Origin: Verrucomicrobiota bacterium
Lineage (GTDB): Bacteria; Verrucomicrobiota; Verrucomicrobiia; Chthoniobacterales; UBA10450
Direction: 5' to 3'
Assembly: GCA_003220155.1 (NCBI GenBank)
Contig: QHRO01000240.1
Location: 1-60,734, forward strand
Length of the DNA stretch: 60,734 nucleotides
The notes below the pieces were generated by a model. It did no database searches. It saw only the letters and a list, made by a program, of their open reading frames with translations, and was not told the origin of the DNA. A program made the translations under genes and the position numbers. Below are positions 6,985 through 53,105 of this stretch, in pieces (positions within the stretch are counted from its first letter, which is position 1; each line of letters starts with the position of its first letter).

Positions 6985-7135
6985 AGCAGCCGACACGGCT
7001 GCCAGTACAGGGGAGAGCGGTGCACGAATCATCGATCGCGTGTACCGAGTCTATTTTTTCTGTGGTGGCACGCGTGTCGCGTGCAATTGGTTCAGGTTTG
7101 GTGCAGCGGACACGACTGCCACTACAGGCCCAGCA
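6985..7135. repeat. Cluster of three REP-like hairpins centred on GTGTC/GACAC
   Basis: Three related hairpins lie in the folK-dapB gap: GCAGCCGACACGGCTGC, GCACGCGTGTCGCGTGC and a TGCAGCGGACACGACTGCCA unit. Two are bordered by TACAGG, the complement of CCTGTA, which resembles the GTAG end of family B. The region has no credible ORF. Confidence 0.6.
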
Positions 7136-7866: not shown

Positions 7867-7931
7867 TGTAGCTGCCGCTGTCTCCAGCGGCAGAACCAGC
7901 AATTCTGCCACCTGTGACGGTGGCAGCTACA
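7867..7931. repeat. REPIN (family B, GTAG...CTAC) between dapA and dapB
   Basis: The element reads TGTAG, hairpin CTGCCGCTGTCTCCAGCGGCAG, a spacer, hairpin CTGCCACCTGTGACGGTGGCAG, and CTACA. This is the inverted-pair architecture known for REPINs. It is the same type as the copy inside the DNA ligase fusion at 35912. Confidence 0.8.
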
Positions 7932-8855: not shown

Positions 8856-9010
8856 GGCCCGGCGGTCATAGACCGCCGCTACAGAACAACCGCTCACACT
8901 TCAACCGTGCCTCCGCAAAACATTTCTTTCCTGTAGCGGCGCTCTATGAGCGCCGATCATTTCCTTTTCGCCAGTTCGTTCGGCCCGGCGGTCATAGACC
9001 GCCGCTTACA
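8856..9010. repeat. GTAG-type REP cluster between dapF and dapA
   Basis: A single inverted REP (CGGCGGTCATAGACCGCCGCTACA, 8856-8883) is followed by a full REPIN (8932-9010). The REPIN starts TGTAGCGGCGCTCTATGAGCGCCG and ends CGGCGGTCATAGACCGCCGCTTACA. The last end carries an inserted T relative to CTACA. Confidence 0.8.
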
Positions 9011-12172: not shown

Positions 12173-13403
12173 ATGGCGAGAGCAGAGTCTGGATTGTAAT
12201 TTCCCGACCGGACCGGTTGCCGACAGCGATTGCGGTGGCGCAGGCGGTTCGCGCACAATTTCCAGGCGGTGTGCATTTGTTGCGCGAGCATTCGAAATGG
12301 TGGGACCACGCACAATGGCGGCCGTATGCGGACAATTTGACGAGATTCATGCTTTCCCACGCGTGAATACGTGCCGTGGTTTGCGTGATTTGTCGCGACT
12401 CTACCGTGAATCCGCCGCGCGGCGCGAAGCAATCGCGCAGCAACCGATCGGTAAAAAACGCGATCTCGTTGTTTGCGTGGGTGGAATTCTGACCATTTCC
12501 AATGCGACGATCTCGGCGCATCCGGAGGCGAAGAAGGTGCTTTGCGTCGCAGAAAAAGTTTATCGCGATCTTACCCGTGTCGGCGGGCGCACCCGCTATC
12601 GATTTACCACTTCGGGCTGGTTACAAAATCGGATTGTCGAACCGATGGCGGGTTTAAACCGAACCCTCCATTTCAAGCCGCGGATAAATCCAGGTGGCGA
12701 TGGCGTCCGGGTCGAGCGTCTGCAAAAAAATCCGGAGTTCCTCTACCATCGAATCGTGGTCATGAGTAATGGCGGGACCGATGTCTCGAACAATCCGAAA
12801 ATTATTGGGGCCAAATATCCCAGTGTGGCCGAGCTGCAGGATTTGCCGGAAGTCAGCGACAGAAATGGAGATGGTATCAGTCGCCGGGTGATCTTTTTCG
12901 GCACGCCTTTCCTGCTAATTCATAACGTGTCAGCCGATGTTTACGTCGAGCAACTCAATCGGTGTCTCGATTATTTGCGGCGGAATTTCAGCGGTCACGC
13001 TTTAATTTATCGTCCGCACCCGAACGAGACGAACGAAGCTGACCGAGCAGAACTCGACGGTTTTCGGATTGAAGATGGTCGCGAAGCCGCTGAGCTTTAT
13101 CTTTTGCGGAACTATCAAACGATCGCGGCCGTTTTCTCGGTCTCCTCAACGGTATCGCGAACGGCGCTGAACAATGGGATCAATGGCTACGCCATGTATC
13201 CCGTCTTTCCATTCACCACGCAGCAGGCCGAATTCTTTGCAGGCGTGATGGGTGACGTTCCGGTTGAGTTTACCATTCGCGATCTAAATTCGCCGCCGAT
13301 TCCGTATCAACCGATCGTGGCGGAAAGCGGACGCAGTTTTACGGAACCGATGCGAATGGCGGCAGAACACGTAGCAGCTTCGATCGCTGACCTAGGGGCT
13401 TAA
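12169..13403 (+). pseudogene. GT-B-like surface-polysaccharide transferase, interrupted by a -1 frameshift
   Basis: The reading frame starts at ATG 12169, overlapping the queE stop, as MNGESRVWIVISRPDRL, and ends at a stop at 12366. The rest continues in another frame to 13403. The joint lies at GGACAATTTGACG (12331-12338): adding one C there would read YADQFDEIHAFPRV without a break. The C-terminal part has YRPHPNE and FSVSSTVSRTAL, resembling the HP and SS motifs of bacterial sialyl/polysialyltransferases, so a GT-B fold transferase is likely. No slippery heptamer is visible, so programmed frameshifting is improbable. It is either a real mutation or a single-base sequencing error. The exact function is unknown. 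Confidence 0.65.
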
Positions 13404-13455
13404 CACATTTCGCGGAAGGAATTGGCTAGGAAATAGCGATTTTTCACGCCAAATC

Positions 13456-13482
13456 TGTAGCCGTCGCGCTCTGCGCGACGCG
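13456..13482 (+). repeat. GTAG-type REP downstream of the RAYT gene
   Basis: TGTAG is followed by the near-perfect hairpin CCGTCGCGCTCTGCGCGACGCGG. It is oriented outward relative to the RAYT gene and pairs with an inverted unit on the other side (14038-14063). Confidence 0.8.
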
Positions 13483-13534
13483 GTATGGGTTAACCTACCT
13501 TGGTGGGGTTGAGCGAAGTGCACTCACGGGAAAC

Positions 13535-14035
13535 CTAGTCACCATAAATCGTTATTAACTCGCCAGCGTACGGCCAATCCTCGACTCTCTCTACCAGCTG
13601 AGCGCGAACTGCATTTTCACGAACGTAATCCCACTTTTGCGCATAACTCTCTTCACTTCTCAAGAGGTGATCAAAGAAACCGCGCTGCCAGACTGGATCG
13701 TGCGACCTACCCGTGGCTATCGCGCCGCCGAGAACACGCTTTAACGTGCCGACCCATTTCCCAAGATTGAAGTCGTCTGGCCCCGCGACAAACAAATGGA
13801 TGTGATCTGGAAGGATTACATAACGACCGACCGCGATTCCAAATTCCCTATGCGCCCGATCGGCGAACTCGATGAACGCAGCGTGAACTTCAGCGCGTGC
13901 GAGAATTGATCGCCTACTATACGTGCAAAAGGTGACGAAAAACAAAGGACTTCGTGAGAAAACCCAATGGAGTCGCGGAGGGGTTCGCGCGAAGCTTTTC
14001 ATTTTTTTCTTTCGAGTTGAAACGTGATCGGGCAT
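13535..14035 (-). CDS. REP-associated tyrosine transposase (RAYT, Y1/HUH family)
   Basis: A 166-residue single-domain HUH nuclease of the IS200/Y1 superfamily in its REP-associated form. The metal-binding HUH motif is in VILPDHIHLFV (about 83-93). The C-terminal helix SYAQKWDYVRENAVRAQLV contains the likely nucleophilic tyrosine and the characteristic ENxVRA pattern of RAYTs. The start may be the first ATG or MKSFAR. Known RAYTs bind the GTAG tetranucleotide and hairpin of REPs and can cut them. Here the gene lies between outward-facing GTAG hairpins at 13456 and 14038, and GTAG elements are common in the window, so it is a good candidate for their mobiliser. No TnpB neighbour or IS ends are seen. 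Confidence 0.9.
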   Translation of the reverse strand: MPDHVSTRKKKMKSFARTPPRLHWVFSRSPLFFVTFCTYSRRSILARAEVHAAFIEFADRAHREFGIAVGRYVILPDHIHLFVAGPDDFNLGKWVGTLKRVLGGAIATGRSHDPVWQRGFFDHLLRSEESYAQKWDYVRENAVRAQLVERVEDWPYAGELITIYGD

Positions 14036-14037
14036 CC

Positions 14038-14063
14038 TGCGCTTCGCAGACCGAAGCGGCTAC
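14038..14063 (-). repeat. GTAG-type REP upstream of the RAYT gene
   Basis: On the minus strand it reads TGTAG then CCGCTTCGGTCTGCGAAGCG, a hairpin. It lies directly beside the RAYT start region and is inverted relative to the unit at 13456. Confidence 0.78.
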
Positions 14064-14083
14064 AGCTAGATTGGTGCACTCGC

Positions 14084-16216: not shown

Positions 16217-17938
16217 CTACAGTCCCATTAATTCGCGAACGTATTTCACTGGCGGGCTGCCAAAGGAGATGACGGTGTTATTGTAGTTTTTGAGATTGAA
16301 GGCTGTGCCATCTCTCGCTTTGGCACGATCACGCAAGTCAAGGTGCTCGGCCACGCCTACGAAGTAGGTCGATAGTTGCGCCGAGCTAAGCCGGAGCGCG
16401 CTTCCATTTCGCAACCGCTTCGCCTTCCTGCTGGAAACCTTCTTTTATCATCAAATCCATCGCTTCTTTTTCGCTCATGTTTTTGGCGTGAATCTCCTGA
16501 TCGATGATGGCGTTGCAAATCGCGCGCAATCGCATTTTCAACTGTTGCATTTTCACTTCCGGCCCGCCGTAGCCTTGTTCTGCCATCATTTGTTCACAAT
16601 ATACGGCCCAGCCTTCGACGAACGTCCCACTCTGGAAAATTGCGCGGACCAAGGTTGGTGCGCGGAATTCGTTAGCGTGGGCCAGTTGCAAATAATGTCC
16701 GGGCATCGCTTCGTGCACGCGTCAGGTCGCGGCACATGTAATTGTTGTATTCCTTGAAGAACGATTCTTTACGCTGTGCGCTCCAATCTTTTGGCGTCGG
16801 TGCGACCGCGAAAAATCTTTTGCCATTTTGCTCGAGCGGTCCTGGTGGATCACAGTAGGCAATCGCCTGTCCGCGTTTGAACTCTGGCATGACGATGACC
16901 TCAAGCGGCTTTTCCGGCACCGCGACGAGGTCGCGCTGTTTGGCAAACTCGGTCGCTTCGCCCACGATTTTTTGCGCATAACCGACGACGGTATTGTCGT
17001 CCGGATGCTGCTCGGCCAGCTTGTCCAGAACCGCGCTCGTGACCTTCTTCTTGTCGGCCAGCGCTTTCTTGTCCGCGTTGGGGAAATATTTTTTGTAAAG
17101 TGGAAGCGCGGTTTCGTAGATTGCTTTTTGGGTTTGCGCCAGATCAGCCCGGGCGCGCTGCATGATCTCTTCCATCGAGAGATCGGAAGCGAGGGCAAAG
17201 CGCAATTTCTTGCAAAACTTGTCAGCACCCAGGCGGAAATCGCCATCTGACCGTGGGAGCAAATCTTTTTGCAACCACGTCTTGTAATCTTCGAGCGCCT
17301 TCGCCGTTTTTTCCTGAATGGGTCCCAGATCTTTTGCCACTTGCGGCCCTTGATTGAGCAAAGGTGAAAGGCCCTCGCGCACTAACGAAATTGCGCCCTG
17401 GGTCTGCTCGATCGCGGTCTCGGTATGGATCTTGGGCGAATGTTTCAAGTTGGTCTTGGCTTGAGCGATGACGGCGGGAATTCCCTCCAGGCGTTTGCGC
17501 AAATTCAGAATGCGCTGCTCCGCTGGCGCGAAATCGCGCGCCACCAGCAAATAGACGCTGTTGGCGAGACTTCGGTTGTAAACCAGCGGGTTCCATTCCC
17601 ATTCCTTTAGCTCTTCGATGTCGAAGATTTCGTTGTCGACATTGTCCTTAAGCAGGCGGAGATCGACGTTGTTCGCGCCGGTCAGTTGTGAAAGGTCAGT
17701 GAGTCCTTCGACTTGCTGCCGCGTTTGCTTCGCCCGCGCCAGTTCCTGGACACGTGCCTTCGCGGATTAATCCGTCAGCTTGTCGTCGAAGCGATGATCT
17801 CCCAGCTCCGGAGCATTCTCTGGATGAGTAACCAGGTAGCCTTCGACACTGTTCATCCTGGGGCGTAGCGCCAACGTTTGTTAGCGGCATAACTAACGAA
17901 ACTAATACAAAGAGAATTCGCAGTCGGACGCCAGGCAA
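16217..17938 (-). pseudogene. Decayed DUF885-family (putative metallopeptidase-like) secreted protein
   Basis: Pieces in three frames assemble into one DUF885 protein. A signal peptide (RILFVLVSLVMPLTNVGA) is followed in a new frame by NSVEGYLVTHPENAPELGDHRF. An in-frame TAA (17767-17769) interrupts LTD/SAKARVQEL. The long central part is intact in the ORF 16672..17550. An extra base near 16720 separates RDLT from VHEAMPGHYLQLAH, the conserved HExxxxH-like motif. A second extra base near 16395 precedes SSAQLSTYFVG. At least four lesions rule out a single sequencing slip. DUF885 members are often exported and linked to peptide degradation, which fits the adjacent POT transporter. The family call is from memory of the HEAMPGHY motif. 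Confidence 0.8.
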
Positions 17939-20253: not shown

Positions 20254-22770
20254 TTTTTGATTAATCCGTACGAGCCTCGACAAAAGTTGGAATCAAGTAC
20301 GAAGGAAATTGAAACGTGCGCCCGTGGGTTTACTATCGGCACGGTGGCTCGCTCAGCAAAGAACAGCGCGTGGAATGAAGTCTTCGCCATCATTCTACTT
20401 TTCGCTGGGACCCTGCTCTTCTTCGCGCTGATTTCGTATAGCCCGCGCGATCTCCCCTCGTGGGTGCCGTGGAGTTATTTGTCACCGCCAAACCGGCCGC
20501 CGCAAAATTTCATCGGTCCGTTTGGCGCCATTTTCGCGAGCGTGTTCTATCTGCTCATCGGAGCGGCATCCTATTTCCTCGCCGCGGCGCTGCTCGGCTT
20601 CGGCGCCGCCAAACTCTTTTATCCACGTTTGCGGGTGATTGCGCGTCTGCCGTGGATCATTCTCTTCATTGTTTCCGGGGCCTGTCTGTTGCAACTACAA
20701 ACGCGCTACTTCTTTGATTGGAAAAAACTAAACATTCAGGGACCGGGCGGATCGATCGGTTATGTCTTCGGCAAGAAACTCTTGCTCACCGCTATGGGCG
20801 ACGTCGGTTCAATGATTCTTCTGGCCGGCATTTATCTGAGCGCGCTCATTCTCATGACCGGTCTGCGCCCGATCCATCTTGTGCGCGAAACCGTCGGTGG
20901 CATTCGTAATGGCGCCGCTCGTTTTCGCGACTGGCGTTTACGCCGTGAGATGCGTCACGCGGATATCAAGGAGCAGCTGGCGATCAGCGAACGTGAGCTG
21001 GCAAAGCAACGGCGGTCGCTTGAAAAACAGCTGAAGAAAAAGGGCGCAGCCGTTCCAGAGAGAATACTGATCCCGCCGGAAGAACTGGCCGGTCGCCCGA
21101 AACCGAAAGTAGTCGATACCACCGCGCTCCCGGAGGAGGCACTTACGGCGCCGCGCAAAAAACCTTCCCTGGCAGAATTGCGTCCGGCGAAGTCGAAACC
21201 ATCGATCGCGGTGGCCGAAGCGCGAAGATTCGATGCCGAAAATTATGTACTTCCAAGCATTGATTTGCTGGACGAACACGATCCCGAAGGCCGCGGTGGG
21301 GCGGATCCGGCCGAGCTCGAGCAGGTGCAGGCGGTTCTGATCGAAACACTGGGGCAATTTGGTATTGCCGTGGCTGCGGGCGACATTACCAAAGGACCGA
21401 CGATCACGCGTTACGAAGTTTATCCGGCCAAGGGTGTGCGGGTGGACAAAATCGTTTCGCTCGAACGCGATCTGGCGCGTGCGACCCGAGCGGAACGCAT
21501 CAACATTCTGGCCCCAATTCCGGGGAAAGACACGGTCGGGATCGAGATCGCCAACACGCGCAAAATCAAAGTGACCTTGCGCGAATTGATGCAGTCGGCC
21601 GAGTGGGAAGAAGGAAAGAGGCGTTGCAAACTTCCGCTGGCGCTGGGTAAGGACGTTTACGGCAACGTCATCATTGCGGATCTGGCGCAAATGCCGCACC
21701 TGCTCATTGCAGGTACGACCGGGAGCGGCAAGAGCGTTTGCATCAACGCCCTGATCGCGAGCATTCTCTTTCGTTTCACCCCCGAAGAGCTGCGTTTCAT
21801 CATGATCGATCCCAAGGTGGTGGAGATGCAGATCTACGAAAAACTGCCCCACCTCGCTTTCCCGGTGGTGACGGATCCGAAAAAGGTGTTGATCGCTCTG
21901 CGGTGGTTAAGCGACGAAATCGATCGGCGTTATAAGATTTTTGCGCGCGTCGGCGTACGGAACATTACCAGTTTCAACGCCCGGCCACCGAAGAAGACAC
22001 AAAAGGAGTTGGATGATGACATTGTAGCCGGCGTCGCTGACGCCGGCCCCTGGTCAGCGACCGCGGCTACAGAAATCCATGTTCCGCGCGAGGGCGAACT
22101 GGTCATTCCGGACAAGCTGCCATACATCGTACTCATCATCGATGAACTGGCCGATCTGATGCAGACCGCGCCAGCCGACGTGGAAAGCAGCATCGCACGA
22201 ATGGCTGCCATTGCCCGGGCCGCCGGAATTCACCTCATCCTGGCGACCCAAACGCCGCGGGCCGACGTCATCACCGGCGTGATCAAGGCGAACATCCCAA
22301 GCCGCATCGCCTTCCAAGTCGCAAGCAAGATCGATAGCCGCGTCATTCTTGATGAAAATGGCGCGGACCGTTTGCTTGGCCAGGGTGACATGCTTTATCT
22401 GCCTCCGAGCACGTCACGATTAATCCGCGCCCAAGGCGTGCTGGTGACAGACGATGAGATTCGAGAGCTGGTCGATTTTGTTTCCGGGCAAGGAGGTCCG
22501 GCCTTTGACAGCGCGATGCAGGACAGATTGCAATCGGGTGCAACTCCGGTTGAGGAGGTTACCGAGGAAGACGAAGAACTGGTGGAGAAATGTCTTGAGG
22601 TTATTCGCCAGGAAAAGCGAGCCTCAACTTCCCTGTTGCAGCGCCGGCTTCGACTTGGGTATACCAGGGCTGCGCGCATCGTTGATATTCTTGAGCAGCG
22701 CGGTATTTTAGGTCCCGGCGAAGGCGCGAAGCCGCGCGAGATTCTGGTCGATCTCGACGCCGCTGTTTAA
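20221..22770 (+). CDS. ftsK: DNA translocase FtsK/SpoIIIE
   Basis: A septal DNA pump that clears chromosomes during division. Four membrane helices lie at about residues 50-225. A charged coiled-coil linker follows (about 235-285), then the motor with Walker A AGTTGSGKS (about 497-505) and Walker B IVLIIDELADL (about 634). The C terminus is the winged-helix gamma domain (EDEELVEKCLEVIRQ...RILVDL-type end). The annotated ATG is doubtful, since the first 40 residues are unlike FtsK; GTG 20344 (VARSAKNSAWNE) is an alternative. Residues about 602-617 (VAGVADAGPWSATAAT) are encoded by an in-frame REPIN just before the Walker B strand. rodZ follows 15 bases after the stop. Confidence 0.94.
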   Translation: MQWGVDPHYLHFLINPYEPRQKLESSTKEIETCARGFTIGTVARSAKNSAWNEVFAIILLFAGTLLFFALISYSPRDLPSWVPWSYLSPPNRPPQNFIGPFGAIFASVFYLLIGAASYFLAAALLGFGAAKLFYPRLRVIARLPWIILFIVSGACLLQLQTRYFFDWKKLNIQGPGGSIGYVFGKKLLLTAMGDVGSMILLAGIYLSALILMTGLRPIHLVRETVGGIRNGAARFRDWRLRREMRHADIKEQLAISERELAKQRRSLEKQLKKKGAAVPERILIPPEELAGRPKPKVVDTTALPEEALTAPRKKPSLAELRPAKSKPSIAVAEARRFDAENYVLPSIDLLDEHDPEGRGGADPAELEQVQAVLIETLGQFGIAVAAGDITKGPTITRYEVYPAKGVRVDKIVSLERDLARATRAERINILAPIPGKDTVGIEIANTRKIKVTLRELMQSAEWEEGKRRCKLPLALGKDVYGNVIIADLAQMPHLLIAGTTGSGKSVCINALIASILFRFTPEELRFIMIDPKVVEMQIYEKLPHLAFPVVTDPKKVLIALRWLSDEIDRRYKIFARVGVRNITSFNARPPKKTQKELDDDIVAGVADAGPWSATAATEIHVPREGELVIPDKLPYIVLIIDELADLMQTAPADVESSIARMAAIARAAGIHLILATQTPRADVITGVIKANIPSRIAFQVASKIDSRVILDENGADRLLGQGDMLYLPPSTSRLIRAQGVLVTDDEIRELVDFVSGQGGPAFDSAMQDRLQSGATPVEEVTEEDEELVEKCLEVIRQEKRASTSLLQRRLRLGYTRAARIVDILEQRGILGPGEGAKPREILVDLDAAV
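22023..22071. repeat. REPIN (family B) inside the ftsK coding region, in frame
   Basis: TGTAG is followed by the perfect hairpin CCGGCGTCGCTGACGCCGG, then CCCC, an imperfect right half, and CTACA. It is 49 bases long with the ends typical of the intergenic copies. The reading frame stays open through it (T-GTA-GCC ... GCT-ACA). Confidence 0.8.
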
Positions 22771-26958: not shown

Positions 26959-27135
26959 GTCATCCCGAGCTGTCCTGTAGCGGCGGTCTATGACCGCCGA
27001 AACCTTAGTAAACGGCGGTCATAGGCCGCCGCTACAGAAGATCCCGTGGGGTCGGCTTAAAGGTAATTTCATCAGGATCCCTCCCAGCCTCCGCGTAAGG
27101 CTACGGCGTCGCAAGCGACTGTCGCTCGGGATGAC
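26959..27135. repeat. Family A palindrome with a nested GTAG-type REPIN (26976-27036)
   Basis: The outer ends GTCATCCCGAGC and GCTCGGGATGAC belong to family A. Inside the left arm lies a complete REPIN: TGTAG-CGGCGGTCTATGACCGCCG, a spacer, CGGCGGTCATAGGCCGCCG-CTACA. The right arm carries GGCTACGGCGTCGCAAGCGACTGTC, matching the long-form element at 26421. Confidence 0.85.
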
Positions 27136-34142: not shown

Positions 34143-36983
34143 GTGATCGATGTTCGATACGAGCGTGGCGTTTTTTTGCCGCAACAAAATCTCTGGCTCG
34201 ACCCGTGGGAAGCTAAGGAGTTCGCTTTCGTTTCTCACGCCCACATCGATCACATTGCACCGCATCGTGAGATTATCGTCTCGGAACGGACCGCGCGCTT
34301 GATGCGAGCGCGGCTGGCGGGAAAACGCAAGGAAATCATCCTGCCATTCGGCCAGGAAAAGGATGTCCGGGGAATGCAGGTGACCCTGTTTCCGGCCGGT
34401 CATATTTTTGGTTCGGCCCAACTCTTTTTGCGCACTGAGAATGATTCGCTGCTTTACACCGGCGATTTCAAATTGCGCCGGGGTCAATCGGCCGAGCCCG
34501 CGGAATGGACGGCGGCCAGCACCCTGATTATGGAAACAACCTATGGCATTCCGCGTTATCGCCTTCCGCCGACCGAGGAAGTGATCGCGCAAATTATCGC
34601 TTTTTGCCGCGATGCGATCGAGAACGATGAAGTTCCGGTGCTACTCGGCTATTCGTTGGGCAAAGCGCAGGAAATCCTTTGTGCCCTCGCCGGAGCCGAT
34701 CTCACACCGATGCTGCACGGTTCGGTTTATCAAATGACGCGTATCTACGAACAATACGACCAGGAATTTTGCCAATACCTTCGTTATCATCCGAATGATC
34801 TCGCCGGCAAAGTTCTGATTTGTCCGCCGAGTGCGAATCGCTCGCGCATGCTTGAGAAAATTCCGCGCAAACGCGTAGCCATGATCAGCGGCTGGGCGGT
34901 CGATCCGAACGCGATTTATCGTTATCAGGTCGACGCGGCATTCCCACTGTCCGATCACGCCGACTACGATGATCTGCTGCGCTACGTCGAGCTGGTGGGA
35001 CCGAAACGGGTTTTCACTTTGCACGGATTCGCCGCGCAATTTGCGCGCGATCTACGCGCGCGCGGGATCGAGGCGTGGGCGTTGACCGAAGAAAATCAGA
35101 TGGAGCTCACGCTTGGGACGTCTCCTGCGCAATTACCCGACATCGCCGTCACCGTCTCAATCGCAGAATCAAATGGTCTGCCGCCAGTGATGGCGGCAGC
35201 TACAACGGCAACTCCGTCGGAATTTCTCGGGTTCGCGAATGTTGGCCAGGCCATTGCAGCGACCCCGGCGAAGCTCGAGAAGGTCCGTCTGTTGGCAGAA
35301 TATTTCTCGTCGATCGATGACGAGCGACTCGCCATCGCCACGGTTTATTTTACCGGTCATGCCTTTCCGCAAACCGATCTGCGCACGTTGCAAGTGGGGG
35401 GCTCCGTCATTTACCGCGCCCTTGGCGGCGCGGCAAAAATCAGCGACGCAGAATTTCGACGCATTGCTCACAGTCATGGCGACGCCGGTAAAACTGCGTT
35501 TGATGTACTCGATGGTCGCACCGTTTCGGAGCCTTTCGGTATTACCGATTCCTACAAGTTTTTTGAACAACTCCAGAAACTGCGTGGACCTGTAGCGAAA
35601 AAGGAGGCACTGCAAAATCGCCTGGCGCAACTCTCTGCGCGGGAAGGTCAATATGTGGTCAAGATTCTCACCGGCGATCTACGCATCGGATTACGCGAAG
35701 GCCTGGTCGAGGAAGCAATTGCCAGGGCGTTCAATGTTCCGCTCGATGAGGTAAAGGAAGCGAACATGCTCCTCGGCGATATCGGACGCACCGCGGTTCT
35801 GGCAAAAAATAACGAGCTGGAGCGGGCGGAGCTTTCGCTCTTTCGCCCCATCAAATGCATGCTCGCCAGTCCTGAACCAACCGCCGAAGCAATCTGGAAA
35901 CGATTCGTCGATGTAGCTGTCGGTGTCTCTGCGGCAGAACCTAAAAACCTGCTGTCAGAGACGGTGGCAGCTACAACACCGGTAGCTAAAAGGTCGCCAC
36001 CTACTGTATACGTCGAAGACAAATTCGATGGCATTCGCGCGCAACTGCATGCCAGCCGGACACGTTCCGAAATCTTTTCACGCGATCTCAAGCGTATCAC
36101 CGGCCAATTTCCCGAAATTGCCGAGCAGGCGCGCCAATTTTCAGAGGAAGTAATTCTGGATGGCGAGATCATCGCCTTTGCCGAGGATCGGAAGCTGACA
36201 TTCTTCGATTTGCAGAAACGACTTGGGCGAAAAACCGACGCGCTCGAGTTATTTGAGACTTCCTCGGCCGACGTGCCGGTAATATTTGTTGCCTTCGATC
36301 TATTGTTTTTGGACGACCGTTCCTTGTTGAGAACTGCGCTGCGGGAGCGACGGGACCTTTTGCGCGGTTTAAAGCTGCCACCGAAATTTCAGATCGCGTC
36401 CGTGGTGGCAGCGCATTCCGCTAACGAGATCGAGAGCGAATTCAAGCGCGCGCGGCTGCGTTTGAACGAAGGGCTCATGGTCAAGAATCCGCAAAGTTTT
36501 TATTCGCCGGGACGGCGCGGGATGTTCTGGTTCAAGCTGAAGAAGGAGCTGGCGACGCTCGATGTCGTGGTCGTGGGAGCCGAGCTTGGCCACGGAAAAA
36601 GAAATCACGTGCTCAGCGATTACACCTTTGCCGTGCGCGATGAAAGCAGCGGCGAATTATTACCAATCGGCAAAGCTTATAGCGGACTGACCGATGCCGA
36701 AATCGCCGAGCTGACCGAGCATTTCAAAGACAACACCCTGGTTGAGCACGGGCGCTATCGCGAAGTGAAACCAGACATCGTCCTGGAAGTTGCCTTCAAT
36801 TCCATTCAACCAAGCACGCGCCACTCCAGCGGACTCGCCTTGCGTTTTCCCCGGATCAAAGCCATTCGGCGCGACAAAACGATCGAAAATATCGACACCC
36901 TAGCATACGCGCAGCAGTTAGCGGCGGAACAAAATCACCGTCATCCCGAGCGTAGTCGAGGGATCCCGCCGCGAAATCTTTAA
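34143..36983 (+). CDS. Metallo-beta-lactamase-fold exonuclease fused to ATP-dependent DNA ligase
   Basis: Residues 1-330 form a beta-CASP metallo-beta-lactamase nuclease (SHAHIDHIAPH metal motif; YTGDFKLRRG; DHADYDDL), the type annotated as ligase-associated exonuclease. Residues about 360-935 form an ATP-dependent DNA ligase. It has an all-alpha DNA-binding domain, the nucleotidyl lysine in EDKFDGIRAQ (K627), DGEIIAF, VAFDLLFLD, EGLMVKNP and WFKLKKE. The start is GTG. The two activities are usually separate adjacent genes, so this is a natural fusion for DNA repair. Residues about 346-355 and 590-611 are encoded by REP elements in interdomain linkers. The last 14 residues (RHPERSRGIPPRNL) come from a family A palindrome. 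Confidence 0.92.
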   Translation: MIDVRYERGVFLPQQNLWLDPWEAKEFAFVSHAHIDHIAPHREIIVSERTARLMRARLAGKRKEIILPFGQEKDVRGMQVTLFPAGHIFGSAQLFLRTENDSLLYTGDFKLRRGQSAEPAEWTAASTLIMETTYGIPRYRLPPTEEVIAQIIAFCRDAIENDEVPVLLGYSLGKAQEILCALAGADLTPMLHGSVYQMTRIYEQYDQEFCQYLRYHPNDLAGKVLICPPSANRSRMLEKIPRKRVAMISGWAVDPNAIYRYQVDAAFPLSDHADYDDLLRYVELVGPKRVFTLHGFAAQFARDLRARGIEAWALTEENQMELTLGTSPAQLPDIAVTVSIAESNGLPPVMAAATTATPSEFLGFANVGQAIAATPAKLEKVRLLAEYFSSIDDERLAIATVYFTGHAFPQTDLRTLQVGGSVIYRALGGAAKISDAEFRRIAHSHGDAGKTAFDVLDGRTVSEPFGITDSYKFFEQLQKLRGPVAKKEALQNRLAQLSAREGQYVVKILTGDLRIGLREGLVEEAIARAFNVPLDEVKEANMLLGDIGRTAVLAKNNELERAELSLFRPIKCMLASPEPTAEAIWKRFVDVAVGVSAAEPKNLLSETVAATTPVAKRSPPTVYVEDKFDGIRAQLHASRTRSEIFSRDLKRITGQFPEIAEQARQFSEEVILDGEIIAFAEDRKLTFFDLQKRLGRKTDALELFETSSADVPVIFVAFDLLFLDDRSLLRTALRERRDLLRGLKLPPKFQIASVVAAHSANEIESEFKRARLRLNEGLMVKNPQSFYSPGRRGMFWFKLKKELATLDVVVVGAELGHGKRNHVLSDYTFAVRDESSGELLPIGKAYSGLTDAEIAELTEHFKDNTLVEHGRYREVKPDIVLEVAFNSIQPSTRHSSGLALRFPRIKAIRRDKTIENIDTLAYAQQLAAEQNHRHPERSRGIPPRNL
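35177..35204 (-). repeat. Single GTAG-type REP inside the nuclease-ligase gene (in frame)
   Basis: CTGCCGCCAGTGATGGCGGCAG-CTACA is a hairpin with its GTAG end on the minus strand. It encodes LPPVMAAATT in the linker between nuclease and ligase. Confidence 0.7.
35912..35975. repeat. REPIN (family B) inside the nuclease-ligase gene (in frame)
   Basis: It reads TGTAG-CTGTCGGTGTCTCTGCGGCAG, then a spacer, then CTGTCAGAGACGGTGGCAG-CTACA. It encodes VAVGVSAAEPKNLLSETVAAT between the ligase DNA-binding and adenylation domains. Confidence 0.8.
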
Positions 36984-37719: not shown

Positions 37720-37850
37720 GGGGCGACTTCTAAGTCGCCCACCTAGGTCAGCCCTACAGGAAGGCCGTACTAACAAAGCCTGTTTCTGCGAGACGCGGAA
37801 ACCAGCACGCGAGACGCGTGCGCTACCCAGCACCGCGCGGTCCATACTGC
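37720..37850. repeat. String of short palindromes
   Basis: Separate small hairpins follow one another: GGGCGACTTCTAAGTCGCCC, TTTCTGCGAGACGCGGAAA and GCACGCGAGACGCGTGC. They fill the gap between the lipoprotein and the small membrane protein. No ORF is supported. Confidence 0.55.
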
Positions 37851-53080: not shown

Positions 53081-53105
53081 TGTAGTGGCGGTTTATGACC
53101 GCCGA
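53081..53105 (+). repeat. Single GTAG-type REP
   Basis: TGTAG-TGGCGGTTTATGACCGCCG is a GTAG end followed by a hairpin. It lies between the cupin and GT2 genes. Confidence 0.7.

Follow-up and report, generated by a model that had tools for sequence, protein, structure and literature searches.

The window, the whole stretch of 60,734 nucleotides analysed here (contig C203 of a 3.35-Mb Verrucomicrobiota assembly in 354 contigs), carries a RAYT gene enclosed by inverted GTAG hairpins and, elsewhere along its length, further elements with GTAG-hairpin ends. The question raised by this locus is whether the resident enzyme is responsible for these dispersed repeats. We conclude that the locus is very probably a vertically inherited REPtron, in which a domesticated single-copy RAYT is accompanied by its own asymmetric REP class (class C). 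This reading draws directly on the observed gene identity, arms, class membership, synteny, purifying selection and copy numbers. The dispersed repeats nearby appear, from sequence comparison, to stem from the activity of other RAYTs, above all of the class B enzyme encoded on contig C351.

The RAYT gene lies on the minus strand at 13535-14035 and is an open reading frame of 166 aa. Its product belongs to the NCBIfam family NF047646 (REP_Tyr_transpos), against which it scores 101 bits (cut-off 80), and it is also matched by Pfam Y1_Tnp. Its best solved relative is the E. coli TnpA-REP structure 4er8 (E = 2e-9). Both the HUH motif and the tyrosine are present: HIH occupies residues 78-80, and the candidate catalytic residue Tyr137 pairs in the alignment with the tyrosine in the DYI-NPV motif of 4er8, which we take to be the catalytic tyrosine of TnpA-REP. 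In the same alignment, residues 95, 100 and 104 of TnpA-REP correspond to Q117, D122 and R126 of the window protein; Q95, D100 and R104 are among the GTAG-contacting residues of TnpA-REP (PMC8266576). The original prediction of an HUH transposase (HIHLF, ENAVRA) between opposed TGTAG hairpins was borne out by these family and structure matches and by the location of both arms. The window protein reads ENAVRA where both close relatives (G002 and G008) read ENPVRA, so that the usual NPV motif is altered here alone, and judging by this replacement of proline by alanine the enzyme may be beginning to decay. The gene is present as a single copy in its genome and is under purifying selection (dN/dS of 0.117 and 0.123 in comparison with the orthologues in G002 and G008).

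The two arms of the RAYT are unlike. On the 3' side of the gene, a right-type REP arm at 13456-13480 on the plus strand (TGTAGCCGTCGCGCTCTGCGCGACG) has an 8-bp stem; on the 5' side, a left-type arm at 14040-14064 on the minus strand (TGTAGCCGCTTCGGTCTGCGAAGCG) has a 7-bp stem. GTAG stands at the outer end of each, and the gene is therefore flanked by GTAG palindromes in the layout of a giant REPIN, the inverted hairpins enclosing the RAYT like a REPIN with a gene in its middle. This layout had been predicted, and the span given for it (13456-14063) was accurate to one base. Class C follows the pattern TGTAGCCG-stem-TNT-stem, with a GCTTCGC-type stem in one arm and a GTCGCGC/GTCGCCC-type stem in the other. 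A C stands directly before TGTAG, which creates a CT, at 26 of the 36 arms of class C and at 37 of the 46 of class B, versus 185 of all 715 TGTAG sites in the genome sample, although these counts take in related sequences and are not independent.

Both arms are kept in G002 and G008. These two species have an orthologue of the RAYT (84% aa) in the same place and with the same arms, and their sequence is collinear with that of the window across the cassette, with a nucleotide identity of about 87%. A single copy at the same site in three species is the pattern of vertical inheritance, although strict vertical descent is qualified by the differing cassette of a sister species, G005. RAYTs have been described as single-copy and vertically inherited genes, with no evidence of significant species-level transfer (PMC8049555).

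A scan of one genome per species yielded 58 related loci, mostly from Verrucomicrobia and many from soil MAGs. Class C arms occur at thirteen RAYTs of the window RAYT's clade (about 58-84% identity), ten of which, beyond the G002 and G008 orthologues, have about 58-63% identity. The arms in this clade are typically of the GCTTCGC type on one side and of the GTCGCGC/GTCGCCC type on the other. On a tree of 59 RAYTs, the REP class changes 14 times, versus a mean of 33.6 changes when the labels were shuffled. This result indicates that enzyme and REP class travel together, as is known in other groups.

The class C population itself appears to be almost gone in the window's genome. Whole-genome pattern searches returned four left and two right class C arm matches, the window RAYT's own two arms counted, in a 354-contig MAG from which some cognate REPINs may have escaped assembly. 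Outside the locus, these matches amount to one REPIN and two single arms, and no large dispersed population of class C was found by the same searches. The REPIN (C126:11087-11139, 53 bp) is the sole complete cognate one found elsewhere in the genome. It consists of two inverted arms at short distance, and these are the same unlike pair in the order that matches the RAYT coding strand. Among the 58 related genomes, 25 contain the class C left arm, all of them in the same family, with a handful of matches in the window's genus and 92 and 120 in other genera. There are 3 left-arm matches in G002, 6 in G008, 92 in G019 and 44 in G033, the last two of which hold the same RAYT clade. Every genome with a clear class C RAYT has at least three class C arms, and some genomes without one also have many. 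In G015 and G027, 26 and 120 class C left arms were counted, respectively, and no close class C RAYT was found. These arms may be orphan repeats, or the enzyme may be unassembled; many arms without a RAYT are consistent with repeats that outlasted a lost enzyme.

It is also conceivable, though rather unlikely, that the RAYT is retained because it serves the host in a role requiring few REPINs or none, and that the arms are relics or terminators between convergent genes. This explanation is compatible in part with that of a REPtron. It agrees with a dN/dS of about 0.12 in a genome where one full REPIN is left, and with the low numbers of left-arm matches also in G002 and G008. However, both arms are kept in three species, which suggests their continued importance to the enzyme or the locus, and class C is abundant in some genomes of the same clade (G019 and G033).

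If the locus is a REPtron, as we prefer, its mechanism can be drawn by analogy with E. coli TnpA-REP. In the published model, GTAG plus a hairpin is recognised on single-stranded DNA, the DNA is cut at a CT beside the REP, and strand transfer follows (PMC8266576). By this analogy, the window RAYT most likely recognises GTAG plus the hairpin of its own class on single-stranded DNA. It would cleave at the CT immediately 5' to the REP, then join the ends or transfer the strand, so that a REPIN might occasionally be copied to a new place. The frequent C before TGTAG in the class C and class B arms is in keeping with cleavage at CT. The likeness to TnpA-REP and its REP/BIME elements lies in the sequence relation and in the aligned HUH, tyrosine and GTAG-contact positions. 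The E. coli REPs, however, are longer and bulged (PMC8266576), whereas the stems in the window are short and perfect. The system also resembles the group 3 type REPtrons of Pseudomonas and Stenotrophomonas: the RAYT is of similar size with HUH and tyrosine, GTAG is joined to a short perfect stem with a small loop, inverted REPs stand on both sides, and many classes and RAYTs occur in one genome (PMC8266576, PMC3686654). Unlike in group 3, the window arms differ in stem, an asymmetry that is conserved between species, and cognate REPINs are nearly absent. It is by the short perfect palindromes alone that the window RAYT itself is likened to this group. The REPtron is ordinary in kind; the parts worth following are the swap of a RAYT cassette at this locus and the swap of a REPIN in ftsK.

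The slot occupied by the cassette, the HAD-gene slot, lies between two convergent genes (13368-14083). In the window, G002 and G008 it is filled by the class C cassette; in G005 and G009 (locus L244 in the latter), a RAYT cassette of class F, unrelated to the first, takes its place. The flanks in G005 are about 96% identical to the window, and 97-100% identical in many stretches, whereas the sequence between 13367 and 14084 is unrelated. In its place, G005 (L243 2414-3034) has a different RAYT on the other strand, about 41% identical over the match, with a REPIN of another class on each side (arms GGTAGGGATGGCTCTCCGAGCCGTCCC and GGTAGGGACGCATCTCCGAGGCGTC). In G020, which belongs to another genus, the slot contains just a class F REPIN, and in G004 it contains a single class B REP. 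In 386 kb sampled from G005, class F REPs were confined to the RAYT slot, and none was found in the G000 sample, so class F is not a large family in these samples. Between the window and G005, identity is 0.94 in the upstream gene beside the slot and 0.99 in the gene further out, and it dips elsewhere too. The drop beside the slot, together with the unrelated cassette, would fit replacement by recombination. No clear donor of the swapped cassette was found among the sampled species. A change of REP type at a syntenic RAYT locus is reminiscent of the orthoswitch described in Pseudomonas and Stenotrophomonas, in which orthologous RAYTs have differing REP classes (PMC3686654). Here, in contrast, the RAYT itself has been replaced by a distant one.

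The same slot bears on whether the arms and the gene form an autonomous IS200-like transposon that moves as a giant REPIN, which we regard as improbable. The arms are inverted, CT precedes GTAG at both ends, and G005 and G009 hold a different cassette in the slot, as might be expected of such an element. However, each of the three species has a single copy, always at the same site, and the difference in G005 covers the whole intergenic region, 88 bp and 19 bp past the arms, and does not start from the GTAG ends. An autonomous IS200/IS605 element was set aside on these grounds of single copy, synteny and the limits of the slot difference.

The other repeats of the window belong to different classes from that of the REPtron. 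At least nine further GTAG-hairpin elements were located, where at least seven had been predicted, and these represent five sequence classes besides C (A, B, D, E and G); the class C arms are present in none of them. A pair of class G REP-like units lies at 7009-7126 on the minus strand. A class A REPIN at 7867-7931 is matched by a REPIN of its class at the corresponding site of G008 and G002. Class B is represented by REPs at 8860-9009 (8860-8883 and 8932-9009), with no copy at the equivalent site in G008 and G002, by a REPIN at 26976-27036, with no copy at the equivalent G008 site, and by a single REP at 53081-53104 on the plus strand. A class D REPIN lies within ftsK (22023-22071), where the reading frame is kept. 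A nuclease-ligase fusion gene holds both a class A REP (35178-35204, minus strand) and a class A REPIN (35912-35975), the latter also with the reading frame kept. A class E REP (GGTAGCGCACGCGTCTCGCGTGCTGG; 37802-37827, minus strand) has no counterpart in G008. The three sites without a G008 counterpart, two of class B and one of class E, reflect either insertion in the window or loss in G008 after the two lineages separated, and they hint at more recent movement of classes B and E.

Across the genome, sites of GTAG plus a hairpin are not due to chance: 93 were found in an 836-kb genome sample, versus 2-23 (mean about 11) when the tetramer was permuted in eleven ways. The genome has about a dozen RAYT-like loci, five of them above the family cut-off. 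Classes were counted by pattern searches over the whole genome and the 836-kb sample, and the counts depend on the mismatch cut-offs: at up to 3 mismatches, the genome has 97 matches to class B (TGTAGCGGCGGTCTATGACCGCCG), 66 to class D (TGTAGCCGCGGACGCTGTCCGCGG) and 22 to class A, of which B and D share several, and reversed control patterns for the three classes gave zero matches. One general hairpin-arm pattern matched nothing because the stems vary by class. Class B brackets the RAYT on C351, class D the RAYT at C182:3436, and class E (GGTAGCGCACGCG...) the RAYT on C261. In relatives, class A stands on either side of RAYTs of a separate clade; the window's genome yielded no recognisable class A RAYT. 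On another contig (L035 on C22, about 878-1308), a class G REP adjoins a RAYT that is broken across two frames and is probably a dying class G enzyme.

Since the elements of the window are of classes A, B, D, E and G, and class C has so few matches genome-wide, the window's dispersed elements are not those of the class C RAYT. The original prediction that the window RAYT mobilises them did not hold, because classes B, D and E bracket other RAYTs and class C is nearly absent; the genome-wide comparison with the flanking arms that it proposed shows that other RAYTs fit the dispersed copies. It is very improbable that the window RAYT mobilises every GTAG-hairpin element of window and genome through GTAG plus any hairpin, for although a GTAG end and an 8-9 bp stem are common to all classes, stem and loop vary by class, three or more of the other classes each flank a RAYT of their own in the genome, REP class follows the RAYT tree, and the published RAYTs discriminate between stems and loops (PMC8266576).

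An unusual invasion of coding sequences had also been proposed. The invasion itself is real, as REPs lie within ftsK and within the fusion gene, which joins a metallo-hydrolase (RMMBL) nuclease-like part to an ATP-dependent DNA ligase. However, these REPs are of classes A and D, and the phenomenon is known in Verrucomicrobia: REPs inside replication and repair genes, including a DNA ligase of Opitutus terrae, have been published (PMC3733652). The present genome further resembles Opitutus terrae in its coexisting GTAG families and family-specific REPtrons (PMC3733652). The species and the REP sequences differ, and here it is ftsK and the nuclease-ligase fusion that hold REPs. Our results add a well-resolved case of a REPtron from soil Verrucomicrobia, in which the REP classes follow the RAYT tree and the dispersed repeats are assigned to enzymes.

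Where the window's ftsK carries its class D REPIN, a class A-type REPIN (L245, about 17390-17452) lies at nearly the same point in G008; both are in frame. The exchange of a RAYT cassette between sister species and of a REPIN class at one point of ftsK is a useful surprise. We tentatively suggest, as a possibility short of an even chance, that REP sites in this genus are exchangeable slots, where a whole RAYT cassette or REPIN gives way to another of an unrelated class at the same position. Such swaps would be made possible by the GTAG ends that the classes share or by recombination via the flanking genes, and a RAYT could persist under selection with almost no REPINs. The slot and the ftsK locus together make REPtron swapping by recombination between species testable. 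In the ligase fusion gene, one REPIN arm in G008 has another stem (CCCGAAAGCTTTCGGG) than in the window.
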